A DNA stretch of 64,000 bases from Celeribacter baekdonensis. GTDB lineage: Bacteria; Pseudomonadota; Alphaproteobacteria; Rhodobacterales; Rhodobacteraceae. The notes beneath the pieces were generated by a model. The model was not told the origin of the DNA and searched no databases. It saw only the letters and a program-made list of their open reading frames with translations. The stretch spans positions 186,001-250,000 of the forward strand of contig NZ_CP028475.1 in NCBI RefSeq assembly GCF_003047105.1. The letters are read 5' to 3'. Made by a program: the position numbers and the translations under genes. Below are positions 41,563-60,467 of the stretch, piece by piece (positions within the stretch are counted from its first letter, which is position 1; each line of letters starts with the position of its first letter).

Positions 41563-42258
41563 ATGATCGAAAAGACTCCCATCCGCGTCGAAGGTGCTTT
41601 TCAAACAGCGTTGATTGTTGATGACCACCCGCTGTTTTGTGACGCTTTGTCGATGACCTTGCGGGCAGGGGTCGGAATTGCAACCGTGGCCACCGCTGGC
41701 GCATTGGAAGAAGCTTTGGAACGGCTGTCCGCCGGCGATGCGCCGGATGTGATTTTGCTCGACCTGAACTTGCCGGATGTCAACGGATTGGACGGTTTGG
41801 TGCGGTTGACCAAAATGTGCCCGCAAACACCGATCGTAATCGTGTCGTCTATGGCCGAACCACGGGTGGTGCGGTCTGCCATTCGGGTGGGGGCGGCAGG
41901 GTTTGTGCCCAAACATTCCACCCGTGACACGTTCCGCAAAGCCTTTGAACATATCGCGGGCGGCGAAATTTACGCCCCCGAAGGGGCCTTCTCAGAGGGC
42001 GACGCCAATATGCCGCTGAGTGCACGCGAAGATGCGTTGATCCGGTTGTCGCATCTGACCCGGCAACAGGCGCGCATTTTGCAATTGATTTGCGAAGGCC
42101 AAATGAACAAACAAATCGCCTATGAGCTGACCATCGCGGAAACCACGGTCAAAGCCCATGTGACCGCGATCATGCGCAAACTTGGAGTGCAAAGCCGGAC
42201 CCAGGCGGTGTTGATCGCGCAGGAAGCGAATTTCAACAGTCTCTTGTCTGGAAGCTGA
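41563..42258 (+). CDS. LuxR-type response regulator (AgmR/ErbR-like)
   Basis: 231 residues. REC domain with DDHPLFCDAL acid pocket and phosphoacceptor Asp67 (VILLDLNLPDVNG), then a LuxR helix-turn-helix (LTRQQARILQLICEGQMNKQ, IAYELTIAETTVKAHVTAIM). The closest functional relatives by type and context are Pseudomonas regulators of PQQ alcohol oxidation (AgmR/ErbR, ExaE). It heads an operon with a FIST protein and a hybrid kinase and stands next to the quinoprotein island, where repeated CGACC-WW-GG elements are its candidate binding sites. Confidence 0.92.
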   Translation: MIEKTPIRVEGAFQTALIVDDHPLFCDALSMTLRAGVGIATVATAGALEEALERLSAGDAPDVILLDLNLPDVNGLDGLVRLTKMCPQTPIVIVSSMAEPRVVRSAIRVGAAGFVPKHSTRDTFRKAFEHIAGGEIYAPEGAFSEGDANMPLSAREDALIRLSHLTRQQARILQLICEGQMNKQIAYELTIAETTVKAHVTAIMRKLGVQSRTQAVLIAQEANFNSLLSGS

Positions 42259-42293
42259 CTTTCCGCCACCCTTGGGGAGGGATGGAGGTTCCA

Positions 42294-45759: not shown

Positions 45760-46539
45760 TTAGGCCGACCGCCACCGCGCCGCCGCCCGTTCCCAGCGTT
45801 GGATCACCACGACCTCGATGAGCAACATCACGGCCACAAAGCTGAGCGCATAGGCCAAGACATAAGCAGTCTGAAAGTTTTGAAAATGCAGGTGAATTTT
45901 AAAACCTATCCCGCTTGAACGGCCCAAAAATTCGACCACAAGAACGATTTTCCAGATCATCGCAAGCCCGTTGCGCCCGGCGATGGCGAAATAGGGCGCG
46001 AGTTGCGGCAGCAAAACATGGCGCAGACGTGCTCCGAGTGGCATGGTGTATAGTCGCGCCATTTCATCCAATTTCGGATCGCGCGCGCGTGTCCCATCCC
46101 GCAAAGTCACCGTCACTTGTGCCAATTTGTTCAATGTGACGGCGGTGATGGCGGCGGTTTCGTTGAGGCCGATCCAGAGATAGCACAACACGATGATCAC
46201 CAGCGCCGGAAGGTTCAAAAACACCGTGATCCATGGCGCAAACGCGCGTTCTAATCGCGGCAATACCCCAAGTGCGATGCCCAATAGCGTTCCCAATGCC
46301 ATGGCCAAGCCAAAGGACAAGGCAACGCGGATCATCGTGGCCTGCATCTGTGGCCAGAGCGTGCCGGAGGTGATCAAATCGACCAAAACGCGCAGCACCG
46401 CCATCGGGGACGGCAAAATATCCGGGTCCGCCTTATGCCACGCGGCCACAGACCAAAGCCCGATGAGCGCGGCCAGTGACAGCACTGTGCTCGCCCCTTT
46501 TGACGCGGCCTGTCCGATGATGATCCGTTCCTGTCGCAT
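45760..46539 (-). CDS. ABC transporter permease, NitT/TauT/SsuC type
   Basis: 259 residues, six membrane helices, with the permease loop EAA-like motif (ARLYTMPLGARLRHVLLPQLAPYF). The start has GGGAGGA upstream. Its ATPase and binding protein are not adjacent: the only matching ones in the window are at 56826-58495, on the far side of the island. It is divergent from the NosR-like gene and shares with it one CGACC-type element. Members import sulfonates, pyrimidines, nitrate and similar solutes; the substrate here is unknown. Confidence 0.9.
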   Translation of the reverse strand: MRQERIIIGQAASKGASTVLSLAALIGLWSVAAWHKADPDILPSPMAVLRVLVDLITSGTLWPQMQATMIRVALSFGLAMALGTLLGIALGVLPRLERAFAPWITVFLNLPALVIIVLCYLWIGLNETAAITAVTLNKLAQVTVTLRDGTRARDPKLDEMARLYTMPLGARLRHVLLPQLAPYFAIAGRNGLAMIWKIVLVVEFLGRSSGIGFKIHLHFQNFQTAYVLAYALSFVAVMLLIEVVVIQRWERAAARWRSA

Positions 46540-46589
46540 TCAATCCTCCCGATCCTGATCCTAACCCCGCACGGGTCCTAGAGCGCTCT

Positions 46590-46606
46590 GGACCTTGGTC
46601 GTATTC
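46590..46606. promoter_or_regulatory. Candidate operator, CGACC-type element between ABC permease and nosR-like gene
   Basis: GGACCTTGGTCGTATTC; on the other strand it reads TACGACC-AA-GGTC, matching the elements at 51311-51354, 55601-55632, 56271-56308 and 58545-58599. It is 33 bases before the NosR-like gene and 51 before the divergent permease. Binding by the LuxR regulator is inferred. Confidence 0.6.
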
Positions 46607-46638
46607 AACGCCAGCGCGCGCGCCGTTAGCGTCATCAT

Positions 46639-48741
46639 ATGATGACACGGTACGCCCTTATTCTGGCCCTGCTTTGCGCCATTGTCGTTGCCCCGAGGCC
46701 TGTTTCGGCGGCGGCCCCCGATCCTTTGCCCCGCGCAGACGTCGAGGCGATGATCATCCCGCCCTATGCCTTGGGCGAGAGCCTCGCCGACAATGGCGTC
46801 TATCAATTGTTGAATTCGGGCGGCGCGGAGATCGGTTATGTGTTCGAAACCGGCCCGCTCGCGCCCTTGCCGGGGTTTTCCGGTGCGCCGATCGACATGC
46901 TGGTGTTGATGGACACAAGCGGTGTGTTTTTGGATGTGCGGTTGGTGTCGCAACGCGAGCCAGTGTTCGTGTCTGGTCTTGGAGAAGCCCCGTTTCGAGA
47001 GTTTATTGAACAATATAAAGGTCTTGCGATCACCCAAAGTCTTGTTGTCGGTGTGCCTTACGGGGCCAGCGGTGGCGGCGGATCGGACCTTGTGTATTTG
47101 GACGGCGTGACCAAAGCGACGGCCAGTGTGCGCATCGCCCATGAAAGCCTATTGGCGGCGGCGCTTTCAGTGGCGCGTGACAAAATGCAAGGTCTGGCCC
47201 AGACGCCGCCAGCGCGTCCCAAACCCGACGATGGCGAGATGTTGAGCTGGCAAGACTTGGTGGATCAAGGCATTGCCAAGCCGTTGCGGGTCAGCAATGC
47301 CGAGGTGGACGCCGCCTTTGCCGGGACGATTTGGGCCGATGATGACCCGGAGGCAAAGGCCGATCCGGAAGGGATGTATCTCGATTTGTGGTTGGTGGAT
47401 TTGGGCCCGCCTGCGGTTGCACGCGCCGTGTTGTCCGACGACTCACTGAGTGACTTACAGCATTTTCTAGCGGTCTCCCCCGAGGCGGAACCTTTGCTGA
47501 TGTTGGAGGCGGGGCGGCATGGGTTGGTCTCCGAGGATTTCGTGCGCAACACCGCACCAGATCGGCTTTCGGCGGAACAGGGGGGCTTGCCCGTGGCGCT
47601 GCGCGATGCGGATTTGCTGGTCGAATTGGCTCCTGATGTGCCACAGGCCGGGGCCGCGATGATCCTACGGGCTGACCGGCGTTTGGGCTTTGATCCGATC
47701 TCAGACTGGGAGTTGCGGGTGCAAGCCGTGCGCGCCCATGGCAGTTTTCAGCCGCGTTTGGGCGACACTCATTTCGCCCTGACCTACGCCGCGCCTGATC
47801 GGTTCTTCGAGGTCTCAAAACCGCATAAGCCGCTGCCCGCCTGGGCCGAAGCAGCGCTCAATCGACGGGCAGATTTGATCGTTTTGGCCGTGGTTCTGAC
47901 CGGGCTGTTGCTCCTTGTCGGGCCCGGCATGACGCGGCTTGCGGCTCGGCCAAATTTCACCGCCATCCGCCTGACAATATTGGCCTTTGTCATCGTCTTC
48001 ATCGGCTGGTGGGGGCAGGGGCAGTTGTCAATTGTCACCGTCTTGGCCAGCCTGCGCGCCGCTGTTGGACAAGGTTCCTTTTTGGTGCTGCTTTATGACC
48101 CGTTCTCTCTGATGATCTGGGCGGTGGCGATCCTTGGGTTCGTGCTTTGGGGGCGGGGGCTGTTTTGCGGCTGGCTTTGTCCGTTTGGTGCGATGCAGGA
48201 GGTGCTCCACCATGTCGGAAAGCGCCTGAATATCCGTCAGATCAAAGTCTCGGATGACTGGGACAACCGTTTGAAAAAAGTCAAATATCTGGCGCTCTTT
48301 GGCGTCATCGCGGTGACATTCGCCGCCCCCAATTATGCCGAAAAAGCCGCCGAAATTGAGCCGTTTAAAACCGCCGTCACCGTCTATTTTATCCGCGATT
48401 GGTATTACGTTGCTTATGCCGTGTTTTGGTTGGGGCTTAGCCTTGTCTTTTTCAAAGGGTTTTGCCGGTATGTTTGCCCCTTGGGCGCAGTCATGGTGAT
48501 TGGAGGCCTGTTGCGCGGGCGCGATTGGATTGCACGGCGTGAAGCGTGCGGCAGTCCGTGCCAATTGTGCCGGGTCAAATGCCGCTATGGTGCGATCAAA
48601 AAGACCGGTGAAATCCAATATGATGAATGCTTTCAATGTCTTGATTGTGTCAAAATTCATGATGATCCGAACCAATGCGTGCCGCTGATCTTGGCCGCCA
48701 AGCGACAGGAGCGTGCCACATGCCCGCCAAATCTCACCTGA
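46639..48741 (+). CDS. NosR/NirI-like membrane flavo-iron-sulfur protein
   Basis: 700 residues. A signal peptide (MMTRYALILALLCAIVVAPR) and a periplasmic FMN-binding domain come first; the segment LDGVTKATAS (Asp155 to Ser163) is close to the ApbE target DxxxGATxT, with Lys in place of Gly. Several membrane helices follow, with two cytoplasmic CxxxCP motifs (FCGWLCPFGA, FCRYVCPLGA). A C-terminal pair of 4Fe-4S sets ends the protein (CGSPCQLCRVKC; CFQCLDC plus a later Cys). Expected to move electrons across the membrane. It overlaps apbE by 22 bases. No nosZ or nir genes are present, so a role in alcohol oxidation or in cofactor maturation is more likely than denitrification. Confidence 0.88.
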   Translation: MMTRYALILALLCAIVVAPRPVSAAAPDPLPRADVEAMIIPPYALGESLADNGVYQLLNSGGAEIGYVFETGPLAPLPGFSGAPIDMLVLMDTSGVFLDVRLVSQREPVFVSGLGEAPFREFIEQYKGLAITQSLVVGVPYGASGGGGSDLVYLDGVTKATASVRIAHESLLAAALSVARDKMQGLAQTPPARPKPDDGEMLSWQDLVDQGIAKPLRVSNAEVDAAFAGTIWADDDPEAKADPEGMYLDLWLVDLGPPAVARAVLSDDSLSDLQHFLAVSPEAEPLLMLEAGRHGLVSEDFVRNTAPDRLSAEQGGLPVALRDADLLVELAPDVPQAGAAMILRADRRLGFDPISDWELRVQAVRAHGSFQPRLGDTHFALTYAAPDRFFEVSKPHKPLPAWAEAALNRRADLIVLAVVLTGLLLLVGPGMTRLAARPNFTAIRLTILAFVIVFIGWWGQGQLSIVTVLASLRAAVGQGSFLVLLYDPFSLMIWAVAILGFVLWGRGLFCGWLCPFGAMQEVLHHVGKRLNIRQIKVSDDWDNRLKKVKYLALFGVIAVTFAAPNYAEKAAEIEPFKTAVTVYFIRDWYYVAYAVFWLGLSLVFFKGFCRYVCPLGAVMVIGGLLRGRDWIARREACGSPCQLCRVKCRYGAIKKTGEIQYDECFQCLDCVKIHDDPNQCVPLILAAKRQERATCPPNLT

Positions 48742-49619
48742 CCCGCCGCCGGTTTTTAACGCTCTGCGCCTCGGCCCCTGCGATGGGGCTGGCCAGTGCC
48801 GCACGCGCCTCAACCCAAATCTGGCGGGGGCAGGCTTTCGGTGCGGAGGTCTCGCTGGAACTGTCGAGTGATGTGCGTCAGCTGCAACAGGATTTGGACG
48901 CGGTGGTGCAGGAACTGCGCCAGATCGAGTCGCGGTTTTCGATCTATTTACCCAGTTCAGAACTGTCGCAATTGAACGCGCGCGGACGCATCGCGGTGAG
49001 CGAGGAGATGCACGAGGTCTTGCGGCTGGTGCGTCGGGTACATTTGGTCAGTGAGGGCCTGTTTGATCCGACGATTCAACCACTTTGGCAGGCTCTTGTC
49101 GAGGGTCGCGACACAGCGGAGGCACGCGCTTTGATCGGCTTTGAGCGGGTCGAGATCGGCAGTAGCCATGTGCGTCTGGCACCCGGTCAAAAGCTCAGTC
49201 TGAACGGCATTGCACAAGGCTATGCCACCGACCGGATCACAGCGCTGTTGCGGCGGCGTGGTTATGATCACGCGCTGGTCAATATGGGAGAGTTTCGTGC
49301 CATGGGGGGGCCCTATCATTTGGGCATGTCTGACCCCGAGGCGGGACAACTTGGCCGCCTGAGCCTGACGGATGGCGCGGTGGCAAGCTCCAGCCCCGGT
49401 GCGATGCGTGTGGGCGATGAGACCCATATTCTGCACCCGAAAGGCGGTGTGCCGCTGTGGTCAACGGTTACGGTGCAGGCCAGCTCGGCTGCGCTTGCGG
49501 ATGCTGTGTCGACCGCGTTTTGCCTGATGCCGCGCAATCAGATCGCACGGGTTTGCGACCGGCTTGATCTCGGGCCTGTGGTGATGGTTGACTTTGAAGG
49601 GAACCTTGAAACGCTGTGA
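48720..49619 (+). CDS. apbE: FAD:protein FMN transferase, Tat-exported
   Basis: 299 residues from the ATG at 48720. A twin-arginine signal (RRRFLTLCASAPAMGLASAA) exports it. The ApbE core shows FSIYLPSSELSQLNARG, LSLNGIAQGYATDRIT, LVNMGEFRAMGG and SAALADAVSTAFCLM. It attaches FMN covalently to a Thr of partner proteins; the obvious partner is the overlapping NosR-like protein. Some core residues deviate (THILHPKGG for the more usual HIIDPxTG), so activity should be checked. Confidence 0.88.
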   Translation: MPAKSHLTRRRFLTLCASAPAMGLASAARASTQIWRGQAFGAEVSLELSSDVRQLQQDLDAVVQELRQIESRFSIYLPSSELSQLNARGRIAVSEEMHEVLRLVRRVHLVSEGLFDPTIQPLWQALVEGRDTAEARALIGFERVEIGSSHVRLAPGQKLSLNGIAQGYATDRITALLRRRGYDHALVNMGEFRAMGGPYHLGMSDPEAGQLGRLSLTDGAVASSSPGAMRVGDETHILHPKGGVPLWSTVTVQASSAALADAVSTAFCLMPRNQIARVCDRLDLGPVVMVDFEGNLETL

Positions 49620-49633
49620 GCGTGGTCAAGGTT
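49602..49633. terminator. Hairpin over the apbE stop codon, between convergent genes
   Basis: AACCTTGA at 49602-49609 pairs with TCAAGGTT at 49626-49633, and an inner ACGCT/AGCGT pair adds five more. The stem contains the apbE stop codon. There is no T-run after it. A terminator or mRNA-end stabiliser is likely. Confidence 0.5.
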
Positions 49634-49646
49634 CCGATCTATGATC

Positions 49647-50558
49647 TTAACGCTCGGGGGGCAGGAAACTCAGCCCATGAGCGGCGAAAATCGCCGGGAT
49701 ACGCCCATCATCGAGCGCTTTTTCAATCGCATAATCCACGGCATAGCCAAGATCGCGGTGCTGTTGGTTGACGGCAGCGCCGATGGTCCATGTCGAGCGC
49801 ACCAGCCCCGGAAGCGGCGGGGTGTGGACCGCAAATCCAGAGGTCTCATCCACAGCAAGCCCGGCCTCAATCACCGCCAAAGGTGCCATGACGGCCATGG
49901 TGTCTCCGGCCACCATGGCGGAAACGGCGAGGTCTGAGCTGGGATAGCGGTGGATCGTATCGGAGACCACGCCGCGCCCGATGGAGGCGAGGTAGAGATC
50001 CGAAATGCTGTCGTTTTCCACGGCGACCGTGTCATAGCGGAAATAGGCCGGTGTCGGGATGTCATCCGGGTCGGGATAGTCGGTCAGGCTATAGCCGATG
50101 GCGAGGGTTTCCGCCGCATATTGCCCCGTAAAAACAGCCTGTTCGACGCGGCAGGCGAATTCACTGTCATAAGGCACATGCAACATCACATCGGAGACAC
50201 GCCCGCCCACGGCAGCCCCTTTCCAAACGTAATTGCGCAGATCGCCCTCAAGGGTTTCATCGGCCTGAACCAGACGAAACCGCGGCGCGACGCCGAGGTC
50301 TTCGGCGATGAGCGTGCCGATTTCTACGTCGATACCTGCGGGTTTTCCGTCCTTGAGAAAGGACCAGGGCGCGAAGTTTTCGTAGAGCGCAAATTCGATC
50401 CAACCCTCATCAATGATCGTGTCGAAATCACGGCCAATGTCTTGGGCAAAGGTGTTTTGCGGCCGCAGTTGCGGCACGACATCCTCACATCGGGCAAAAG
50501 CCGGCCCCGCAGAAGCGAGACCGGCCAAAAAGGTGAGAGCCAAGAGGGAATGTTTCAT
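49647..50558 (-). CDS. MoxJ-like periplasmic binding protein of quinoprotein systems
   Basis: 303 residues with a signal peptide (MKHSLLALTFLAGLASAGPA). The body is a type-2 solute-binding fold (FALYENFAPWSFLKDGKPAG, GIDVEIGTLIAEDLGV), as in the quinoprotein-dehydrogenase-associated MoxJ group, whose members help dehydrogenase assembly or function rather than ordinary uptake. It is 12 bases downstream of the PedF-like cytochrome gene on the same strand. Confidence 0.82.
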   Translation of the reverse strand: MKHSLLALTFLAGLASAGPAFARCEDVVPQLRPQNTFAQDIGRDFDTIIDEGWIEFALYENFAPWSFLKDGKPAGIDVEIGTLIAEDLGVAPRFRLVQADETLEGDLRNYVWKGAAVGGRVSDVMLHVPYDSEFACRVEQAVFTGQYAAETLAIGYSLTDYPDPDDIPTPAYFRYDTVAVENDSISDLYLASIGRGVVSDTIHRYPSSDLAVSAMVAGDTMAVMAPLAVIEAGLAVDETSGFAVHTPPLPGLVRSTWTIGAAVNQQHRDLGYAVDYAIEKALDDGRIPAIFAAHGLSFLPPER

Positions 50559-50570
50559 GGAAACAAACCC

Positions 50571-51257
50571 TTAATGCGCGGCAGACAGGCCAACGGTCAA
50601 CAGGTCCGCTGCGTGTTTCCAGGTCTCTGGATCATCAGACATGGTGCGCGAGGCCTCAAAGGCGATGCTGTCGGCGACGGGCGCACCTGATCCGGTTTCA
50701 ACCCCGGCGGCGATGCTGGCCAGCTCTTCTTTGAGGGCCATAGGATCGTCAACATCGCCTGCCAAAAGGTGATCGCGGATTTCGATCAAACGGGTCATGT
50801 GGCTGTCCAACGCACCATCATCGGGGCGGGTTTCGATATAGGTGCGGATCGCCCAAGCGGCTTTTTGACCCAGGATTTCGCCAAAGGCGGGCATTTTGGT
50901 GACGCCGTTTTGGGTCATCCCCAATTGAAACCGCTCCACGAACCATTCATCGCCATATTCTGCGGCTTCAAGATAGCGCAGATCGGGGGCAAGGCCGCCG
51001 GAGACCGCACCAAGACCATGACAGCGGGCGCAGTTTTGGTTGAACCCGGAGGAGCCGATTTCAATGGCTTTAAGCCAAACCTCTTCACCGGCAGCTTCGG
51101 CACGATAAGGGTTTTCGATCAGCCAATCGTCCCCCTCCACGCCAACATCGGGTAGCATATCGGTGTTGACCGCCTGTGGGGTGACATCGCCATGGGCGAA
51201 GGCGGAAGTGGCGAGTGTGGCGGCGGTGAGCGCGGCAAGCAAAGCAGTGCGTTTCAT
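50571..51257 (-). CDS. pedF: PedF-like cytochrome c-550
   Basis: 228 residues from the ATG at 51257, with signal peptide MKRTALLAALTAATLATSAF. One heme site NCARCHGLGAVSGG and the likely Met ligand in TKMPAFGEILGQ. The N-terminal mature sequence HGDVTPQAVNTDMLPDVG and the segment NQNCARCHG fit the PedF group, which takes electrons from PQQ alcohol dehydrogenases in the periplasm. First gene of a two-gene operon, divergent from pedA1 across a region with two CGACC-type elements. Confidence 0.87.
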   Translation of the reverse strand: MKRTALLAALTAATLATSAFAHGDVTPQAVNTDMLPDVGVEGDDWLIENPYRAEAAGEEVWLKAIEIGSSGFNQNCARCHGLGAVSGGLAPDLRYLEAAEYGDEWFVERFQLGMTQNGVTKMPAFGEILGQKAAWAIRTYIETRPDDGALDSHMTRLIEIRDHLLAGDVDDPMALKEELASIAAGVETGSGAPVADSIAFEASRTMSDDPETWKHAADLLTVGLSAAH

Positions 51258-51310
51258 GTGATCCTCCCAAGTTTCCCAATCAATATCGCTGCAGCTGCAA
51301 CAGGCGCTAT

Positions 51311-51354
51311 TCGACCTTGGTGCAACTGTCGAAACCGTCATGCGACCTTGGTCC
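51311..51354. promoter_or_regulatory. Two candidate operators between pedF and pedA1-like genes
   Basis: CGACC-TT-GGTGC (51312-51323) and CGACC-TT-GGTCC (51343-51354) repeat in direct order, 31 bases apart (about three helical turns), in the middle of a divergent promoter region. They match the island-wide element. Confidence 0.65.
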
Positions 51355-51406
51355 CATTTCGGTCGAGCCGGAGCCGAATTTAAGGTGAGAGCACGGGAGG
51401 ACGACA

Positions 51407-52597
51407 ATGACACATATGCGGCGCGCGATCCGTGTGGCGGCGTTTGGCATGCTCTGTGCGCTTTGTGCGCAGGCGGGTGTCCAGGCGGCTGAGTTGGATC
51501 TGACGGTTGGTTATTTGCGGCTGGAAGAGCCTGCGCATCCGGTGCTGTCGGGCTTGGATCCGGTGCCCGCGCGGCGTGGTATTGAGGGCGCTGAACTTGC
51601 CATTTCCGACAATCAAACAACGGGCGGGTTTTTAGGGCATTCCTATGCGTTGGATGTGGTCAGCCTTGCCCCGGAGGCCGATGTGTTGGCGGCGGCGCAG
51701 GACATGTTGGCCCATACCCGCGTTGTGGTGTTGGACATGACGGCTGAGGCGGCTTTGGCTGTGGCGGATTTGGCCGAGGCCAAGGGCGCGATTCTGATCA
51801 ATGCGGCCAGTGGTGAGGCGGCATTGCGCGGGGCGTCGTGCCGCGCGAATCTGCTGCATACGGCGTTGGAAGACGGTATGGCGGCGGACGCGTTGATGCA
51901 GGTTTTGCTTAGCAAACGCTGGACCAAACTGGCGATGATTGTGGGACCGACCGACGAGGATAGGGTGCGGGCGCAAACGTACCGTCAGGCGGCGCAGAAA
52001 TTTGGGCTCAAGATCGTCTCAGAGGCGACATGGACCTTTGACAGCGATCTGAGGCGCGCCGCGAGCCGCGAAGTGCCGTTGCTGACCCAAGGGTTCAAAT
52101 CCCACGATGTGGTGTTGATCGCCGACGCCCATGACGATTTCGCCCGTTACATCGAACACAACACATGGGAGCCGCGTCCGGTGGCGGGCGGCGGCGGTTT
52201 GACCGCTGTGGCTTGGGCGCCGGTGATCGAACAATGGGGCGCGGCACAGCTTCAGGCGCGATTCACCGATCTGACGGGGCGCGTGATGACGTCGCGCGAT
52301 TACGCGGCCTGGGCGGCGGTGCGCGCCGTGGGCGAGGCGGTGACGCGGACCGGGAGCACGGAGGCGGCGGTGCTGCACGATTATCTTTTGTCTGATGGGT
52401 TTGAATTGGCCGGGTTTCAGGGCCGCCCTTTGAGTTTTCGCAATTGGAACGGCCAGATGCGCCAACCCGTGCCCGTGGTCAACGCCCACGCACAGGTGGC
52501 GGCAGCGCCATTGGACGGGTTTGAACACCCGCGCAACCCTTTGGATACGCTGGGAACAGATCAGGCGGAAAGTGAGTGTCATGCGTTTGGAGAGTAA
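51407..52597 (+). CDS. pedA1: PedA1-like substrate-binding protein (PQQ-dependent alcohol oxidation ABC system)
   Basis: 396 residues. Signal peptide (MTHMRRAIRVAAFGMLCALC), then a type-1 periplasmic binding fold (LDLTVGYLRLEEPAHPVLSG, GAELAISDNQTTGGFLGHSY, ALRGASCRANLLHTALEDGM), the group seen beside PQQ alcohol dehydrogenases. In Pseudomonas putida the PedA1A2BC transporter is reported to be needed for rare-earth-dependent growth at low metal levels. It heads the run pedA1-pedA2-hyp-pedB-pedC. Confidence 0.85.
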   Translation: MTHMRRAIRVAAFGMLCALCAQAGVQAAELDLTVGYLRLEEPAHPVLSGLDPVPARRGIEGAELAISDNQTTGGFLGHSYALDVVSLAPEADVLAAAQDMLAHTRVVVLDMTAEAALAVADLAEAKGAILINAASGEAALRGASCRANLLHTALEDGMAADALMQVLLSKRWTKLAMIVGPTDEDRVRAQTYRQAAQKFGLKIVSEATWTFDSDLRRAASREVPLLTQGFKSHDVVLIADAHDDFARYIEHNTWEPRPVAGGGGLTAVAWAPVIEQWGAAQLQARFTDLTGRVMTSRDYAAWAAVRAVGEAVTRTGSTEAAVLHDYLLSDGFELAGFQGRPLSFRNWNGQMRQPVPVVNAHAQVAAAPLDGFEHPRNPLDTLGTDQAESECHAFGE

Positions 52598-52598
52598 G

Positions 52599-53557
52599 AT
52601 GAAAGTGATATATGCGGGGCTATTGGCCGCCTGTTTGGCACAGCCGCTTGCCGCTGCCGAGATTTGGGTGAGCAATGAAAAGGACGACACCCTGTCGGTG
52701 ATCGACATTGACACTTTGGAGGTGATCCGCACGCTCAAAACCGGTGAACGCCCACGTGGAATCACGTTTAATGCAGATTTCACAAGGCTTTACATCTGTG
52801 CCTCTGACAGCAACGCGGTGCAGGTGATGGACCCGGAAACGGGTGAGATCTTGTTTGATCTGCCTTCGGGGAGGACCCGGAACAATTCGTGCTGCACCCG
52901 GACAATCGCCACCTTTGGATCGCCAATGAGAATGATGCCGTGACCACAGTGGTCGATGTCGAGACGCATAAAGTGGTCACGCAAATCAACGTTGGGATTG
53001 AGCCCGAAGGCATGGCGGTCTCACCCGATGGCAAGACGGTGATCACCACCTCCGAGACCACCAACATGGCGCATTGGATCGACACCGAGAGCCACGAAAT
53101 TTACGCCAACACGCTTGTCGATGCCCGTCCACGCCATGCCGAATTTGTCAAAGACGGAACCGAGCTTTGGGTCAGTTCGGAGATCGGCGGGACAGTTTCG
53201 GTGTTTGACGCGGCGGATCAGTCAGAGATCGGAAAAATCCATTTTGAGATCAAAGGCGTGCACCCCGATTTGATCCAGCCGGTGGGGTTTGAACTGACCC
53301 CGGATCAAAAGACCGCTTTTGTCGCGCTTGGCCCGGCCAATCACATCGCCGTGGTCAACACCGAGACGCTTGAAGTCGAGGACTATATCCTGACCGGGCG
53401 GCGGGTCTGGCACATGGCCTTTAGCCCGGATCATCGACTTTTGTTCACCACAAACGGGGTGAGTGGCGATGTGACGGTGATTGATGTGGCCAAACGGGAG
53501 GCGATCAAATCCATCAAGGTTGGGCGGTTTCCCTGGGGCGCGGTCATGCGTCCGTGA
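52599..53557 (+). pseudogene. pedA2: PedA2-like YVTN beta-propeller protein, interrupted by a -1 frameshift
   Basis: The start at 52599 lies one base after pedA1 and gives the signal peptide MKVIYAGLLAACLAQPLAAA and the first propeller blades (IWVSNEKDDTLSVIDIDTLE). At the GGGG run 52868-52871 the frame is lost. The rest continues in another frame from DPEQFVLHPDNRHLWIANEN to the stop at 53557. One added G gives LPSGEDPEQFVLHPD, which fits the family, so about 319 residues would be restored. The other genes of the operon are intact, so a sequencing error is quite possible. Role: periplasmic partner of the Ped ABC system. Confidence 0.85.
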
Positions 53558-53609
53558 TCGGACAAGTGAGGTGTTGAGAGACGGCAAAAATACAAACAGG
53601 AGTTTTAAA

Positions 53610-54053
53610 ATGCGTTTTCAAATTTTAGCGGCAGCATTGATCGCAGCCACCCCGGCCTTGTCCGATGACGATGGTGATAAACCCAGTTTCGGCATGGCGG
53701 GTATTTTGTCGGCCAGCAATTCCGAAACCCTGCCGCCGATCCTTTTGTCTGCGGGCCAACCCTTGGCCGACGCCCCGTTGCACCTCAAATCCGGCACCTC
53801 CTACGAGATTGAAATCGAAGCTGACGGATCGCAAGAGCTTGGCCTTGTGGGGGCGGGATTTTTCCACGCCATTTGGATTGATGAGATCGTCATCGAAGGC
53901 ATTGAAATTCGCCCCTTGGGGGTCGATAGCGTTGAATTTGACGAGGCGGGGGTGATGGAAATCAGCTTTGTCGCGATCAAGCCCGGGACCTATGATCTCC
54001 ATGTGCCGAACGCACGTGGCGATTTGCAACGCCTTGAAATTACAATCGAATAG
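53610..54053 (+). CDS. Small exported protein between pedA2 and pedB, unknown function
   Basis: 147 residues with a signal peptide (MRFQILAAALIAATPALSDD). The mature part looks all-beta (TSYEIEIEADGSQELGLVGA, SVEFDEAGVMEISFVAIKPG, TYDLHVPNARGDLQRLEITI), a cupredoxin-like outline with no clear copper site. It lies 52 bases after pedA2 and 8 before pedB, inside the transporter operon, so a periplasmic role in that system is inferred. I do not recognise a named family. Confidence 0.75.
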   Translation: MRFQILAAALIAATPALSDDDGDKPSFGMAGILSASNSETLPPILLSAGQPLADAPLHLKSGTSYEIEIEADGSQELGLVGAGFFHAIWIDEIVIEGIEIRPLGVDSVEFDEAGVMEISFVAIKPGTYDLHVPNARGDLQRLEITIE

Positions 54054-54061
54054 GAAACCCT

Positions 54062-54805
54062 ATGGCCGGGCTTGTCGTTGATCACATCACCCATCGCTAC
54101 GCAGGGCGGGCAGATCATCCGCCCGCTTTGGATCAGGTGAGTTTCTCGGTGGAGCCGGGCCAATTTTGCGCGCTTTTGGGGCCAAATGGCGCAGGAAAAT
54201 CAACGCTTTTTGGCATCCTCACCCGGCTTTTCGCGCCCAAATCGGGCCGGGTCGAGGTCGCGGGATATGACATGAGCCACACGCCGCTCAAGGCCCTGGC
54301 GCGCATGGGCGTGGTGTTTCAACAGCCGACGCTCGACCTGGATCTGACGGTCTGGCGCAACATGTTGTATTTCGCGGGTCTGCACGGGATCACCGGACGC
54401 GCCGCCAAACTGGCCGCCTCTGAGGCGCTGGAGCGGCTGGCGATGGTCGAACGCGGTTCGGAACGGGTGCGCGATCTCAACGGCGGGCATCGGCGGCGGC
54501 TGGAAATTGCCCGCGCTCTGATGCACCGGCCCGAGGTCTTGTTGCTGGATGAGCCGACGGTGGGATTGGATGCGCAAACGCGGGCGGATTTGGTCGCCCA
54601 TGTGCATCAATTGACGCAAGAGAGCGGGCTGGCCGTGCTATGGGCGACGCATTTGACCGATGAAGTTTGTGCGCAGGATGGGTTGGTGGTGCTGCATCGG
54701 GGCCGGGTGATTGAGCGCGGCGTGGCCGAGCAGGTCGGGCCGGAGCTGACCGAACATTTCCTCGCGCTCACGGGCGGGTTGAGCGGCGAAAGACAGCCCG
54801 CATGA
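54062..54805 (+). CDS. pedB: PedB-like ABC transporter ATPase
   Basis: 247 residues. Walker A GPNGAGKSTLFGIL, a variant signature LNGGHRRRLEIARAL, Walker B VLLLDEPTVGLD and H-loop WATHLTDEV. The Asn-Gly-Gly-His signature in place of SGGQ is characteristic of the PQQ-associated ABC ATPase group. It overlaps pedC by 4 bases. It energises the PedC permease. Confidence 0.9.
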   Translation: MAGLVVDHITHRYAGRADHPPALDQVSFSVEPGQFCALLGPNGAGKSTLFGILTRLFAPKSGRVEVAGYDMSHTPLKALARMGVVFQQPTLDLDLTVWRNMLYFAGLHGITGRAAKLAASEALERLAMVERGSERVRDLNGGHRRRLEIARALMHRPEVLLLDEPTVGLDAQTRADLVAHVHQLTQESGLAVLWATHLTDEVCAQDGLVVLHRGRVIERGVAEQVGPELTEHFLALTGGLSGERQPA

Positions 54806-55593
54806 GCCATTATGTCAGCGCCCTCATTGCCATTTGCCACCGCGAAGCGCTGCGGTTTTTCGGCCAACGCGCCCGGATGATCGCGGCTTTGGTGCGGCCT
54901 TTGATGTGGCTTTTTGTTTTTGCGGCGGGGTTTCGCGCGGCTTTGGGCCTGTCGATCACGCCGCCCTATGAGACCTATATCAGCTATGAAACCTACATCG
55001 TGCCGGGGCTTTGCGCGATGATTTTGCTGTTCAACGGCATGCAATCTTCGCTGTCTTTGGTGATGGATCGCGAGATGGGCACGATGCGGCTTTTGCTGAC
55101 CGCGCCCTTGCCGCGCTGGTGGTTGTTGAGTTGCAAACTGGTGGCGGGGGCGGTGATTTCGGTGCTGCAAGCCGTTGTCTTTTTGGCAATTTGTGCCCTC
55201 TACGGCATCCGGTTTTCGCCTATGGGCTATGTCGCGGTCTTGCCTGCGATGTTCCTCTGCGCGCTGATGGTGGGGGCTTTGGGGATCGCGCTGTCCTCGA
55301 CCATCCGCAGCTTGGAAAACTTTGCGGGGGTGATGAATTTCGTGATTTTCCCGATGTTTTTCCTCTCCACAGCGCTGTACCCGCTTTGGAAAATGGCCGA
55401 AGCCTCTGAGCTTTTGTGGTGGATTTGCGCGATCAATCCGTTTTCGCACGGGGTCGAAACGATCCGGTTTGCACTTTACCTCAAGGCCGACCCTTTGGAT
55501 TGGGCCATCACTTTGGCGGCTGTGATGGTGTTTATGGCGCTGGCGCTGTGGGGCTATGATCCGGGCAAGCGGACGATGGGACGCAAGGGTTAA
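54802..55593 (+). CDS. pedC: PedC-like ABC-2 type permease
   Basis: 263 residues, six membrane helices, ABC-2 pattern (REMGTMRLLLTAPLPRWWLL, FVIFPMFFLSTALYPLWKMA, INPFSHGVETIRFALY). ABC-2 permeases are usually exporters, yet the Ped system is linked to rare-earth use, so the direction and the cargo (metal, chelator or protein component) remain open. Last gene of the pedA1-pedC run. Confidence 0.9.
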   Translation: MSHYVSALIAICHREALRFFGQRARMIAALVRPLMWLFVFAAGFRAALGLSITPPYETYISYETYIVPGLCAMILLFNGMQSSLSLVMDREMGTMRLLLTAPLPRWWLLSCKLVAGAVISVLQAVVFLAICALYGIRFSPMGYVAVLPAMFLCALMVGALGIALSSTIRSLENFAGVMNFVIFPMFFLSTALYPLWKMAEASELLWWICAINPFSHGVETIRFALYLKADPLDWAITLAAVMVFMALALWGYDPGKRTMGRKG

Positions 55594-55600
55594 ACGCGCC

Positions 55601-55632
55601 CTGGTCGTAGAAAATCCGCCACTTTGGTCGGA
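55601..55632. promoter_or_regulatory. Two candidate operator half-sites before the Sel1-repeat gene
   Basis: GGTCGTAG (55603-55610) and TTTGGTCGG (55624-55631... reverse CCGACCAAA) match the island element in reverse orientation, 23 bases apart, 50-80 bases upstream of 55681. They suggest that the Sel1 gene has its own regulated promoter. Confidence 0.5.
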
Positions 55633-55680
55633 TGTGATATGATCGCGTGCTCTGGCAGCATGGGCGTGGGAGGATGCAAC

Positions 55681-56262
55681 ATGAGATCTGCAATTTTAGC
55701 GATGGCGCTTGTCGCAGCGACACCCGTTTGGGCCGAAGATTTGGCTGAAGATTTCGCCATGGAACTTGGCCCTGACACCGAGGTGACAGAGCAAGGCACA
55801 CTCAATCCGCATGAGATGTCGATGGCGCAGGTGATGGAAAGCATTCGCAACGGCGACACCGGGATGGTGATCTGTTCTCAGGGCTATTTGGTGACCAAAT
55901 CGGGCCGTCACGAGATGGCGCGCGAGCTGTTTGAGCAGTGTGCCGAGAGCGGCTGGACCGGGGCGATGACATGGATGAGCCAACTCGATGATCGCGGTTT
56001 GGGCGGGCCACAGGATTTGGAGGCCGCAGCAGAGTGGAACCGCAAGGCAGCAGAGGCGGGTGATCCGGTTGGCAAATTCAACCATGGGCTGGATTTGATG
56101 CGTGGCTGGGGTGTGGCGCGCGACGAGGCGGCAGGGCGCGCAATGGTCGATGAGGCGGCGCGGGACGGTTTGGATGTGGCGCAGCGGCTGCAAAGTGCGG
56201 AGTATGATTTGGATGAGGTGACGCCGGATGCGGATGAATGGCGCTATTTGAACCTGTTCTAA
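55681..56262 (+). CDS. Exported Sel1-repeat protein
   Basis: 193 residues. GGGAGGA precedes the ATG at 55681. Signal peptide MRSAILAMALVAATPVWAED, then Sel1/TPR-like helical repeats (ARELFEQCAESGWTGAMTWM, DLEAAAEWNRKAAEAGDPVG, GRAMVDEAARDGLDVAQRL) each with the small-residue pattern of SLRs. Probably a periplasmic scaffold. Its promoter region and the one after it both carry CGACC-type elements, which places it in the quinoprotein regulon. Confidence 0.82.
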   Translation: MRSAILAMALVAATPVWAEDLAEDFAMELGPDTEVTEQGTLNPHEMSMAQVMESIRNGDTGMVICSQGYLVTKSGRHEMARELFEQCAESGWTGAMTWMSQLDDRGLGGPQDLEAAAEWNRKAAEAGDPVGKFNHGLDLMRGWGVARDEAAGRAMVDEAARDGLDVAQRLQSAEYDLDEVTPDADEWRYLNLF

Positions 56263-56270
56263 GGCGCACT

Positions 56271-56308
56271 CTACGACCAAGGTCGTAGCCGGGGTGCGAC
56301 CAATGTCG
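56271..56308. promoter_or_regulatory. Palindromic candidate operator plus second element before the cytochrome c gene
   Basis: CTACGACC-AA-GGTCGTAG (56271-56288) is the most symmetrical copy of the island element: 8-bp arms and a 2-base centre. A second copy CGACC-AA-TGTCG lies at 56297-56308, 26 bases further. A perfect FNR box follows at 56319. Confidence 0.7.
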
Positions 56309-56318
56309 GGGGGCTTTG

Positions 56319-56332
56319 TTGATGTGCATCAA
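56319..56332. promoter_or_regulatory. Perfect FNR/FnrL box upstream of the cytochrome c gene
   Basis: TTGAT-GTGC-ATCAA matches the FNR consensus TTGAT-N4-ATCAA at every fixed position. It is 57 bases before the ATG at 56389 and 11 bases after the second CGACC-type element. Oxygen-dependent control by an FnrL-type regulator is expected. Confidence 0.75.
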
Positions 56333-56388
56333 CATCTTGGGCGGCAGAACGGGCGATCTTAGTGGCGAACATGCCATAGGAGACCGCC

Positions 56389-56799
56389 ATGAAAGCCATT
56401 CGATTTTCCCCCAGATTTGCCATTGCTCTGATCCCCGCAGTCTTTGCCACAACGCTGGGCGCATCTGCCGTTGCAGGCGAATATGACGCGATCAAAACCG
56501 CCGCTGGGGCAGAGTTTTTTGACAAGGAATGTCACCGCTGTCACTCGGTCGATGCAGACCGCGCCAGCTACGGTCCGTTGTTGACCGGGGTGATTGGTCG
56601 CAAAGCCGGTAGCTTTGAGGGCTACCCCTATTCTGAGGCCCTGAAAAGCGCCAATTTCACTTGGACCGCAGGTGCGATCCGGGCATGGATGGAAGACAAT
56701 GACGGTTTGGTGCCGGGCACGAAAATGCGCCATGTCGGCGTCGATGATGCCACAGTTCAGGATTTTATCGTCACCTATCTGGCGTCGATTTCCGAATAA
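56389..56799 (+). CDS. Periplasmic class I cytochrome c
   Basis: 136 residues. Signal peptide (RFSPRFAIALIPAVFATTLG), single heme site ECHRCHSVDAD and Met ligand in GTKMRHVG, in the manner of cytochrome c2/c550. A likely second electron carrier for the alcohol dehydrogenase or a link to the oxidase. Upstream lie the palindromic operator candidate and an FNR box, so it is probably under double control. Confidence 0.9.
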   Translation: MKAIRFSPRFAIALIPAVFATTLGASAVAGEYDAIKTAAGAEFFDKECHRCHSVDADRASYGPLLTGVIGRKAGSFEGYPYSEALKSANFTWTAGAIRAWMEDNDGLVPGTKMRHVGVDDATVQDFIVTYLASISE

Positions 56800-56825
56800 T
56801 TCGCGTTGTTTAATCGTGCTTTGAT

Positions 56826-57509
56826 TTAAGAGGGGTCGGCGGTCTGCACCTGTGCGGGCCGCCCAAAAAGGGTCAACACCCGATCACACAGTCGTGCCGC
56901 CTCTTTCGGGTCGTGGGTGACCACAATTGTGGTGGTGACATGATGTGCGCGCAGGGTCTCAAACAGGCGCATCATCTCATCGGCGAGCCTCGGGTCCAGC
57001 GACACAAAAGCCTCATCCATAAGCAACAAATCGGGCGCCGCGGCAAAGGCGCGGGCCAAGGCCAAGCGACGCTGTTGGCCCAAGGAGAGCTGACCGGGAA
57101 ACAGATCGGCATGATCTGAAAGCCCCACCTGCGCCAACCATTGCCGCGCTTTTGGCGCGTCGATGCGGGTGGTCAGGGTGAGGTTGTCCAAGGCGCTGCG
57201 CCATGGCAACAGGGTCGGCTCCTGGAACACGGTGCTGATGCGCTCTGGGCGCTCGCAACTGCCGTCATAGTCGGAATGCAGCCCGCAAATCACCCGCAGC
57301 AGCGTCGATTTGCCGACGCCGGAGGGGCCAACGAGGGCAAGGGAGGCACCGGGCGCGATCGAAAACGAAATCGGCCCGAGAATCTGTTGACCCCCGGCAT
57401 GGGCCGAGCGCAGATCCACATGGACCCCTCCATGCACACCCCCGCTCGGGCTTGCCTGTGGGCGCGCGGGAGCGGGAGCATTGGGTCGGATGATCGGCAT
57501 AAGCTTCAT
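56826..57509 (-). CDS. ABC transporter ATPase, NitT/TauT (SsuB) type
   Basis: 227 residues. Walker A GPSGVGKSTLLRVICG, Q-loop VFQEPTLLPW, signature LSLGQQRRLALARAF, Walker B LLLMDEAFVSLD, H-loop VVTHDPKEAARL. Its start overlaps the binding-protein stop (ATGA). The matching permease is 10 kb away at 45760, across the island. Substrate unknown. Confidence 0.9.
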   Translation of the reverse strand: MKLMPIIRPNAPAPARPQASPSGGVHGGVHVDLRSAHAGGQQILGPISFSIAPGASLALVGPSGVGKSTLLRVICGLHSDYDGSCERPERISTVFQEPTLLPWRSALDNLTLTTRIDAPKARQWLAQVGLSDHADLFPGQLSLGQQRRLALARAFAAAPDLLLMDEAFVSLDPRLADEMMRLFETLRAHHVTTTIVVTHDPKEAARLCDRVLTLFGRPAQVQTADPS

Positions 57510-58495
57510 GTGCCGGGATGGTAGAATGTGCCTTCTGGCAGCGTCGTGGCTTGGCCCACCAAATCCGTGCCGCCAAGTTGCGCCATCAGATCGAGCATCT
57601 TGGCCGCATCTGCGTCAGACACCGGACCCTTTGGTGGAATGCCGTCGATCCATCCGGCTTTGAGGGCCGAAAATTGCGCATCGGTTTTGACATTCATTCT
57701 TGGGCGCAGGCGATCCCAGGCGGCGTCATCCGTGGCCAAAAGCTCTTTGGCCTGACGTGAGGCGGCGGCCAGTCCGGCGACCAATTCGGGGTGGTTTTTC
57801 AACACTTCACCGCGCACAACATAGCCCAAAAGCGGTGTGTCAGGATTTAGACCAAGCGCCACGGCGGCCTCGGAGGTGGAGGCCAAGAGCCGCATCCCGG
57901 CGGCGTCCATTTTGGCACCGAAATGCCAAAAATTAATCGCGCCGTCCAACTCGCCGGATAGGGCGGATTTAAAGATCAGCGGCGGTGCGCCGTAGACCTG
58001 TTCGGTGTTGGCCGCCAGATCAAGCCCCTCAGTCTGGGCTGCAAAGGCGCGCAGGATCAGCCAACTTTTGTCATTCGGCCCGCCAGCGATGCCAATTTTG
58101 CCGCCTTTGAGATCGGCAATGGTTTGGGCCGGGCTGTCTTTGGGCACATAAAGACCACCCACGGCTTTGGAATAGGGGATGAAAACGTAATCCTTGCCTT
58201 CGGCGCGTTGGGCCGCAACCCAGAGCCAATCGGCAACGATCATATCCACTTCGCCCGCTGCCAATGCGACACGTGAGGCGGGGGAGCCGGCGACATCAAG
58301 CGCCTCAAGGGCAAAGCCCTGAGCGGTATCGAAGCCGTTATGTTGGATGGTGTCCACCTCCCAAGCGACGGTGCCGGACATTTGCAGCGCGGCTTTGAGT
58401 TTTGGCAGGTCTTCGGCTTTGGAAGCGCCCGAAAAAGCGGCGGTTAAAGCCGCAGCGGTGGCAAGGGCTGCGAGGCCTTTGGTGAATTTGGTCAT
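57506..58495 (-). CDS. ABC transporter substrate-binding protein, NMT1/SsuA type
   Basis: 329 residues from the ATG at 58495 (GGGAGGA upstream). Signal peptide (MTKFTKGLAALATAAALTAA), NMT1-like fold (AALAAGEVDMIVADWLWVAA, GGKIGIAGGPNDKSWLILRA, GAINFWHFGAKMDAAGMRLL). It is divergent from the alcohol dehydrogenase gene and shares its regulatory region with three CGACC-type elements. So it is probably co-induced; the cargo could be the alcohol, a cofactor precursor or a metal chelate. Confidence 0.9.
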   Translation of the reverse strand: MTKFTKGLAALATAAALTAAFSGASKAEDLPKLKAALQMSGTVAWEVDTIQHNGFDTAQGFALEALDVAGSPASRVALAAGEVDMIVADWLWVAAQRAEGKDYVFIPYSKAVGGLYVPKDSPAQTIADLKGGKIGIAGGPNDKSWLILRAFAAQTEGLDLAANTEQVYGAPPLIFKSALSGELDGAINFWHFGAKMDAAGMRLLASTSEAAVALGLNPDTPLLGYVVRGEVLKNHPELVAGLAAASRQAKELLATDDAAWDRLRPRMNVKTDAQFSALKAGWIDGIPPKGPVSDADAAKMLDLMAQLGGTDLVGQATTLPEGTFYHPGT

Positions 58496-58544
58496 GGTTG
58501 ATCCTCCCTCATGGCAGAGTAGGAGCGGGCAGGCGTGGCACAAA

Positions 58545-58599
58545 TACGACCAAAGGATGGGAAATGGCCCCTAGGTCGCATGGCCCCTACGACCAATGG
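58545..58599. promoter_or_regulatory. Three candidate operators between the ABC binding-protein gene and the alcohol dehydrogenase gene
   Basis: TACGACC-AA-AGG (58545-58556), GGTCGCA (58574-58580, reverse) and CTACGACC-AA-TGG (58587-58599) lie 100-156 bases before the dehydrogenase start and 50-104 before the binding-protein start. This is the densest cluster of the island element. Confidence 0.7.
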
Positions 58600-58700
58600 C
58601 CAATTTCGGAGGGGGCCTCGCTTTGGCGATCATTGGTCAGGCTTTATCTGCGCGGGTCCAAGAGGGAGCGCGCGTCTGGTCATCCATGGGAGGAAAACAC

Positions 58701-60467
58701 ATGAACAGGTTTCTATCTGCTGCATCTGCGGCTGTTCTGGCGTTCGGTCTTGCGGGGGGCGCCTTGGCGGGCGTCACCGAAGAGGACCTGCTGAACGACG
58801 CAAACACACCGGGCGATATTTTGACCAACGGCATGGGGCGCGATCTGCAACGCTATTCGCCGCTTGAAACGCTCAACAAAGAGAACGTGAAAAACCTTGT
58901 TCCGGCATGGGCCTTTAGCCTTGGTGGCGAAAAGCAGCGCGGGCAAGAGACCCAGCCTTTGGTGCATGACGGCATCATGTATGTGACGGGGTCCTATTCG
59001 CGCCTTTATGCGATCGACATGACCAACGGCAAAGAGATCTGGCAATATGACGCCCGTCTGCCCGAAGGCATTTTGCCCTGCTGTGACGTGATCAACCGTG
59101 GCGGCGCGATCTATGGCGACAACATCTATTTCGGCACGTTGGACGCACGCATCGTGGCGTTGGATTTGAAAACCGGCGATGTGAAATGGAACAAAAAGAT
59201 CGCCAACTACAAAGAAGGCTATTCCTACACAGCCGCGCCTTTGATCGTGAACGGTCTGGTCATCACTGGTAACTCCGGCGGTGAATTTGGCATCGTCGGC
59301 GAAGTGCAGGCACGCGACGCGGAAACCGGTGAAATGGTTTGGACACGTCCGGTGATCGAAGGTCACATGGGCACGCTCAATGGCGAAGACTCGACCATGA
59401 CCGGGACACTGAACGCAACCTGGCCGGGCGATATGTGGAAAACCGGCGGCGGGGCAACTTGGCTCGGTGGCTCCTATGACGCCGACACCAACACGTTGGT
59501 CTTTGGGACGGGCAACCCGGCACCGTGGAACTCGCATCTGCGCAACGCGGGCACACCTGTTGAGGGCAACACGGGCGATAACCTTTACGCCGCATCGCGT
59601 TTGGGCATTGATCCGGCCACCGGCGAAATCAAATGGCACTTTCAAACCACGCCGCGCGAAGGCTGGGACTTTGACGGGGTGAACGAGGTTGTGGCCTTTG
59701 TCGACAAAGACGGCAACAAACGCTTCGCCACCGCCGACCGCAACGGTTTCTTCTACGTGTTGAACCGCGAAGACGGCGCTTTTGTGAACGCAACCCCGTT
59801 TGTCTCTGACATCACCTGGGCCAAAGGGATTGATGAAACCGGTCGTCCGATCTACGTCGAAGAGGCCCGTCCGGGCAACCCGCTTGAGGCGGAAAAAGGC
59901 GAGATGGTGTTCTCGGTTCCGTCCTTCTTGGGGGGCAAAAACTGGATGCCGATGGCACACAGCCAAAAGACCGGCATGTTCTATGTGCCGTCGAACGAGT
60001 GGGGCATGGACATCTGGAACGAGCCGATTTCCTACAAAAAAGGCGCGGCTTACCTTGGCGCGGGTTTCACCATCAAACCGATCTTTGAAAGCCACATCGG
60101 GTCTTTGAAAGCGATTCAGCCGGAAACCGGCGAGATCAAATGGGACTTCCAAAACGAAGCGCCGCTTTGGGGTGGTGTGATGACGACGGCTGGCGGCCTC
60201 GTGTTCTTCGGCACGCCTGAAGGGGAATTCATCGCGCTTGACGATGAGACCGGTGAGAAACTCTGGTCGTTCCAAACCGGCTCCGGCATCGTTGGTCAGC
60301 CTGTGACCTTTGAAATGGACGGCGAACAGTATGTCACCGTTGTGTCCGGCTGGGGTGGTGCGGTTCCGCTCTGGGGTGGTGAAGTGGCCAAAAAGGTCAA
60401 CTATCTGAACCAAGGTGGCACGGTCTGGACCTTTAAATTGCCGAAACAACTGGCCATGGCGAACTGA
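58701..60467 (+). CDS. PQQ-dependent alcohol dehydrogenase with lanthanide-type Asp-x-Asp site (PedH/ExaF-like)
   Basis: 588 residues from the ATG at 58701 (GGGAGG upstream). Signal peptide [20 protein letters not shown], then an eight-blade quinoprotein propeller. Visible active-site parts: the vicinal cysteines Cys127-Cys128 ([11 protein letters not shown]), [12 protein letters not shown] with the metal-binding Asn, and catalytic Asp323 in GWDFDGVNE. Asp325, two residues later, is the extra ligand seen in lanthanide enzymes (XoxF, PedH); calcium ExaA has Ser and MxaF Ala there. [14 protein letters not shown] places it nearer ethanol-type than methanol-type enzymes. It oxidises alcohols in the periplasm, passing electrons to cytochrome c. 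PQQ synthesis genes are not in the window. Confidence 0.93.

Follow-up and report, generated by a model that had tools for sequence, protein, structure and literature searches.

A conserved palindrome in a PQQ alcohol dehydrogenase island of Celeribacter baekdonensis is probably the operator of a NarL/FixJ-type response regulator

A stretch of 64,000 nucleotides from Celeribacter baekdonensis (NZ_CP028475.1, positions 186,001 to 250,000), here called the window, contains an island of genes with a pyrroloquinoline quinone (PQQ)-dependent alcohol dehydrogenase, and we were interested in a short palindromic element that recurs between these genes and in the regulator that might bind it. The regulator module lies on the forward strand and is composed of a NarL/FixJ-type response regulator with a LuxR-type helix-turn-helix (41563..42258; Pfam Response_reg and GerE), the candidate binder, a NosP-like FIST-domain protein (42282..43511; PF08495/PF10442) and a NahK/ErcS-like kinase, by Pfam a PAS hybrid histidine kinase (43508..45730). 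The FIST protein reached 372 bits with the NosP model NF041558 (cut-off 450) and the kinase 357 bits with the NahK model NF041832 (cut-off 400), both short of the threshold. Seven predicted transcripts are proposed as targets: a NitT/TauT-type ATP-binding cassette (ABC) permease (45760..46539, reverse strand; PF00528); a NosR-like membrane protein with an ApbE flavin transferase (46639..49619, forward; NF046105 456 bits, cut-off 1000, and PF02424); an SBP_bac_3 binding protein with cytochrome c-550 PedF (49647..51257, reverse; TIGR04494 187.5, cut-off 122); a PQQ-alcohol-dehydrogenase-system ABC binding protein (PedA1-like) followed by a beta-propeller protein and an ABC exporter (51407..55593, forward; TIGR03863 444, cut-off 413.6, and Pfam); a cytochrome c (56389..56799, forward; PF00034); a NitT/TauT ATPase with an NMT1-type binding protein (56826..58495, reverse; Pfam); and the alcohol dehydrogenase itself (58701..60467, forward; TIGR03075 766, cut-off 480).

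To describe the element independently of the window, relatives were identified by their PedA1-like protein, which at E ≤ 1e-20 was matched in 90 of 295 family genomes, and 20 of them served as training set, each with 20 kb around the PedA1-like gene (12 kb in one case, due to a contig end), in which the window genes were placed by tblastn. A symmetric matrix was built from the upstream regions of these 20 relatives only; leaving out the window avoids circularity. Its consensus, TNSGACCWWGGTCSNA, is a 7-2-7 palindrome in which conservation is strongest at the outer T/A and the GAC/GTC and the C/G flanking them vary; compared with it, the consensus of the initial annotation was too narrow. That annotation had placed ten elements in five intergenic gaps, and nine of them were recovered by the matrix with scores of 11.2-21.6, while the tenth at 55603 (score 2.8) turned out to be a GGTCGTA half-site only.

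The first operator (46588..46603, score 19.0) is a single site common to two divergent promoters, with a -10 TAGCGT at 46627 (forward, NosR-like/ApbE) and a TAGGAT from 46563 (reverse, ABC permease) at 31 and 32 nucleotides from its centre, the same as in the Celeribacter baekdonensis loci L284 and L285. Two sites occupy the pedF/pedA1 gap, one on the pedF side (51310..51325, score 18.6) and one on the pedA1 side (51341..51356, score 21.6), the latter with a -10 TAAGGT at 51381 (forward, 32 nucleotides). Upstream of the cytochrome c gene (56389), the perfect palindrome announced earlier at about 56271 was indeed present as TACGACCAAGGTCGTA at 56272..56287 (score 19.6), accompanied by a second, weaker site (56295..56310, score 11.5). 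Adjoining this operator is a further palindrome, TTGATGTGCATCAA (56319-56332), which we take to be FNR-like and which suggests oxygen control in addition. The gap between the NMT1-type binding protein (57506-58495, reverse) and the alcohol dehydrogenase holds three sites, namely 58545..58560 for the binding protein (score 11.2; -10 TACTCT from 58521 on the reverse strand, 31 nucleotides off), a middle site at 58565..58580 (score 15.4) and 58588..58603 for the dehydrogenase (score 17.0). For the last, a putative -10 GATCAT at 58628 (forward, 32 nucleotides from the centre) was assigned by eye, and, also by eye, the alcohol dehydrogenase promoters of relatives often show GATAAT or AATAAT at the matching place. 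The site at 55617..55632 (score 14.0), upstream of the Sel1 gene (55681), is weaker and a doubtful member, as no -10 was detected at the usual distance on the forward strand.

At a matrix score of at least 14 the window gave eight matches, seven of which fall within the five gaps, together 666 bp of 64 kb, and the mean over 20 second-order Markov copies of the window was 0.55 (maximum 2); at a score of at least 11 there were 16 matches, nine in the gaps, compared with a mean of 3.5 (maximum 7). The literal pattern with up to three mismatches occurred 11 times against 3.07 expected; half-site statistics alone were too weak for a decision. Genome-wide (4.44 Mb), TNSGACCWWGGTCSNA with at most one mismatch was found at 20 places (reversed-pattern control 4), of which four, including both perfect ones, are in the island; each of the remaining 16 is contained in an open frame that measures 187 amino acids or more from stop to stop. 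In GC-rich DNA, matches that arise by chance or are driven by codons could in principle mimic an operator, and matrix matches do fall in genes, for example in the FIST gene at 43380, where the match recurs in other genera; yet the excess over the Markov copies, the restriction of all near-consensus sites outside long open frames to the island and, in held-out relatives, sites in promoters against 0 in reversed sequences leave this explanation a practically negligible probability. The comparison in held-out relatives by itself already refutes it. The genome-wide pattern misses weaker sites, among them several in the island, and further members are possible. The operator-like sequence inside the FIST gene (43380-43399) was rejected as a conserved operator because it lies in coding sequence; it is probably kept through conserved protein coding and is a trap for matrix scans.

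Conservation was determined in a second set of 20 relatives not used in training, with a site threshold of at least 11. The pedF/pedA1 gap, one region counted from both sides, had a site in 20/20 relatives (37 sites in all), and sites were likewise present in the promoters of the alcohol dehydrogenase (12/12), the NosR-like gene (11/11), the NMT1 binding protein of the NitT/TauT type (7/7), the permease (5/5), the cytochrome c (cyt553; 7/8) and the response regulator (6/9), with 0 sites throughout in the reversed sequences. The starts of the remaining genes were nearly free of sites (SBP3 0/20, beta-propeller 0/20, CXXCW-type ORF 1/15, ABCa 0/17, ABCm 0/16, NitT ATPase 0/17, ApbE 0/11, FIST 0/10, kinase 0/7). 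These results agree with the expectation that the sites are conserved in orthologous regions, and the proposed membership of the NosR-like/ApbE pair and of the NitT/TauT transporter held up. Sel1, which had also been counted in, was dropped as a firm member with a site in only 1/16 promoters of the second set (7/17 with a shorter core in the training relatives); the regulon of at least seven transcripts claimed before stands with seven well supported in the window, Sel1 apart. The element is not general to PQQ dehydrogenases, as it was nearly absent from 20 paralogous clusters with an ExaA-like dehydrogenase (36-39% identity to that of the window where mapped; ANF 3/20, alcohol dehydrogenase 1/17, NMT1 0/9). 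Five Rhizobiales loci (Rhizobium, Shinella, Ensifer; two read in detail) combine cluster and module with 4-6 matches of at least 12, and at L333 and L354 (Rhizobium, Ensifer) two further operator matches were seen at or past the end of the kinase gene.

In class II promoters such as that of the lux box, the activator site overlies the -35 region and has its centre near -42. In 193 promoters of eight gene classes from both sets of relatives, taking the site nearest the gene, a TANNNT starts 30, 31 or 32 nucleotides past the site centre in 83 cases, compared with 18 matches at 32 other offsets tested. With the -10 beginning at -12, the site centre comes to lie near -43, so that by sequence the site covers the -35 region at a fixed distance from the -10, as expected for class II activation. 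Polymerase could also be occluded by a protein bound at such a position, and RfdRS of Rhodobacter sphaeroides is presumed to act as a repressor (PMC4776306); a regulator that represses or acts both ways is nevertheless improbable, as the fixed -10 spacing and the single site between two divergent promoters fit an activator.

The regulator at 41563 matches PF00072 and PF00196 above cut-off, i.e. a receiver followed by a GerE helix-turn-helix, has NarL (1a04) as best match in the PDB and carries in its translation Asp67 within the usual LLDLNLPD stretch of the receiver. The nearest NCBIfam model was ErdR (NF041830, 173.8 bits, cut-off 390), a name search gave only generic names among the best 120 listed, and the identity to the regulator of Celeribacter baekdonensis B30 is 99%. 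A regulator of at least 49% identity was found in 55 of 58 genomes with an orthologous cluster but in only 46 of 237 others, 13 of which are among the 32 genomes with a paralogous cluster only. Together with the occurrence of the site beside the module at coxG in genomes without the cluster (see below), this upheld the earlier proposal, and sequence evidence favours the response regulator at 41563 over other candidates for operator binding. A tree of 81 regulators, 80 of them from the named genome collection and with neighbours recorded over no more than 10 kb to either side, required 16 changes among the classes quinoprotein, form II, both and none (shuffled 35.4), indicating that the neighbours changed repeatedly. 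At the Roseovarius gaetbuli locus (L340), reading frames revealed a PQQ dehydrogenase overlooked by the tblastn rule.

Of twenty regulator loci taken, 14 came from genomes without a PedA1-like match and four from genomes with a paralogous cluster, and two were second copies in cluster genomes. Fourteen of the twenty were selected for a site with a -10 at the right distance, and the site was followed to the adjoining gene; in 13 the longest frame was a CoxG-like protein (one was run against Pfam: CoxG, PF06240), and in L204 coxG was placed by tblastn. Among the 18 module loci outside the genomes with an orthologous cluster, coxG is nearby in 16 and a form II coxL, for the large subunit of carbon monoxide (CO) dehydrogenase, in 15; the loci without coxG are L212 (no site of at least 12) and L218. 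A site of at least 10 was present at the coxG promoter in 15 of the 16. coxG was no part of the matrix training; sites of at least 10 were detected in 38 of 42 coxG promoters from 100 mapped loci (at least 12 in 35; reversed sequences 2), with 18/21 in loci with the quinoprotein cluster and 20/21 in the rest; L151, L163, L166 and L219 were the promoters without one. The spacing recurred as well, since offsets 15-43 contained 40 TANNNT, 36 of them at 30-32 nucleotides, and the form II signature AYRGAGR was present in the large subunit in 6/6 loci looked at (L209, L075, L078, L217, L253, L257). By comparison, one of 20 form II coxL loci (11.5-14.3 kb each) from genomes without a regulator match had a site of at least 12 (L245, score 16.3), and coxG adjoins in four of these loci, 0/4 of them with a site. 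Twenty form I loci gave four sites in three loci against five in reversed sequence, which is control level.

The targets meet on one replicon in Sulfitobacter pontiacus, whose plasmid pDSM110277_a (L365), typed as conjugative, carries form II coxGSL, a ped-type cluster, a PQQ dehydrogenase, the regulator module and pqqABCDE. According to the public annotation, 7/8 matches of at least 11 lie between genes there, and the intergenic sites precede coxG, pedF/pedA1, NMT1/alcohol dehydrogenase and pqqA, the last being annotated downstream of a site in S. pontiacus only. Among the pqqB loci of relatives, 9/12 have a site of at least 10 at -195 to -260 of pqqB, with 0/12 in reversed sequences. The genome of the window (listed as 100% complete) encodes a PQQ alcohol dehydrogenase cluster, yet profile searches revealed neither a pqqB above cut-off nor a pqqE at E ≤ 1e-40. 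In the 58 cluster genomes, the NMT1-type binding protein occurs in 24/25 without pqqE and 16/33 with pqqE (Fisher p=1.1e-4), and the sole pqqE-lacking genome without it has a homologue of 43%. The lack of pqqE is hardly clustered in a tree of 41 PedA1-like proteins (12 changes, shuffled 13.3), and close pairs in this tree, among them G104/G191, G147/G292 and G192/G251, swap pqq for NMT1. No association of pqqE and NMT1 was observed in the 32 genomes with a paralogous cluster (5/9 versus 13/23). Our guess is that the NMT1-type system (56826-58495 and 45760-46539) is a candidate importer of PQQ or a precursor.

From the site, its conservation, its spacing and its co-occurrence with the regulator, we infer that the element is probably the operator of the NarL/FixJ-type regulator at 41563, which would act as a class II activator. 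An aldehyde, alcohol or nitric-oxide signal is presumably sensed by the kinase (43508) together with the NosP-like FIST protein (42282), whereupon the kinase would phosphorylate the regulator, and a regulator dimer would bind TNSGACCWWGGTCSNA centred about 43 bases upstream of the transcription start, replacing a -35 element and recruiting RNA polymerase. Predicted targets are the seven window transcripts led by the permease, NosR-like, PedF, PedA1, cytochrome c, NMT1 and alcohol dehydrogenase genes and, in relatives, also the pqq operon and a coxG-led form II CO dehydrogenase operon.

Several observations weigh against this assignment. No clear -10 was found at the expected distance in the window promoters of pedF and cytochrome c, nor at the Rhizobiales sites under a Rhodobacter-trained model, and the regulator's own promoter shows only a weak match in the window (41485, score 9.0) and the core in only 4/11 training relatives. 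The regulator also occurs in 46 of the genomes that are not among the 58, and 18 loci of that kind were looked at; the genomes counted as without regulator come from a first look that scored at most nine candidates per genome, and 16 of the 20 regulator-free form II loci have no coxG, so that promoters could be compared with promoters in four only. Another 20 module loci of cluster genomes, most of them at a distance from the cluster or additional copies, included seven with the dehydrogenase, three with coxG and ten with neither, and five (L230, L232, L233, L237, L239) had no site of at least 12. The module accordingly also occurs without evident targets nearby; L226, L229, L230, L232, L234, L235 and L237-L240 showed neither dehydrogenase nor coxG in about 14 kb, and in L239 tblastn detected the regulator alone of the module.

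The five loci without a site would also fit a true operator that is bound by another regulator, with the neighbouring module merely a fellow member of the regulon. The frequent site at the regulator's own promoter and the existence of some quinoprotein clusters without a regulator within the 20 kb fetched point the same way. This is unlikely, if somewhat less so than repression, given the co-occurrence of regulator and cluster, the site that cluster-free genomes have at the coxG next to the module as opposed to 1/20 regulator-free form II loci, and the lack of another DNA-binding regulator among the 20 scanned proteins of the window, regulators special to the relatives not having been looked for.

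If the NarL/FixJ-type regulator is indeed the binder, one operator-regulator pair may govern a wider alphaproteobacterial programme comprising PQQ alcohol dehydrogenase, PQQ supply and a form II enzyme that would be an aldehyde, perhaps formaldehyde, oxidoreductase and not a CO dehydrogenase, a proposal that we regard as tentative and slightly less probable than its opposite. Just as tentatively, PQQ would be supplied by the pqq operon where it is made and otherwise by the NMT1-type importer, as the 24/25 genomes without pqqE might indicate. The activity or role of form II CO dehydrogenase is described as unclear in the accessible parts of PMC13240472 and PMC13203968, and CO is probably not its substrate according to those of PMC6794299. 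An operator and regulator common to the form II enzyme and PQQ alcohol dehydrogenase give the former a concrete, testable substrate class. The operator also links alcohol oxidation with two sets of genes whose role is unknown, the NosR-like/ApbE pair and the NitT/TauT transporter, and is a marker by which the regulon can be recognized in further genomes.

NarL-type 7-2-7 sites consist of two inverted heptamers around a 2-bp spacer. The operator described here has the same layout, but its heptamer is TNSGACC and not that of NarL. We found no published site of the form TNSGACCWWGGTCSNA in the portion of the open-licence PMC literature covered; the available text of PMC12997753 gives no AgmR site, palindrome, inverted repeat or consensus, that of PMC4776306 no regulator site, and that of PMC6115532 mentions no binding site, motif or palindrome. 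By gene order, the window module matches Rhodobacter AfdR-T-S. In AfdRS and RfdRS of Rhodobacter sphaeroides and in FlhRS of Paracoccus denitrificans, one operon has the order regulator-ORF-kinase (PMC4776306) and is tied to methanol and formaldehyde metabolism (PMC4776306 and PMC8879981). These systems control adhI/flhA, encoding glutathione-dependent formaldehyde dehydrogenase, whereas the operator here is mostly absent from flhA promoters: matches of at least 9 occurred in 3/23 (scores 10.2-12.8) versus 1/23 reversed and none in the genome of the window (L085), and control of flhA in the manner of FlhR was not borne out. Similarly, a Sinorhizobium meliloti module beside flhA/fghA (43% regulator) had no match of at least 11 in front of flhA, of fghA or of the PQQ dehydrogenase, and the only intergenic match (11.8) is upstream of a gene annotated as sialidase. 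A further parallel is the Pseudomonas ped cluster, beside which a triad of NosP (PP_2663), PedS1/NahK and AgmR/ErbR is located and whose ped genes are activated by AgmR together with the pqq operon (PMC12997753, in the part available, which has no mention of form II CO dehydrogenase). The proteins of the window stay below the NCBIfam cut-offs for NosP, NahK and ErdR, a difference from this triad; what the two have in common is that a NosP-like protein, a NahK-like hybrid kinase and a regulator of the LuxR type adjoin a PQQ alcohol dehydrogenase cluster.

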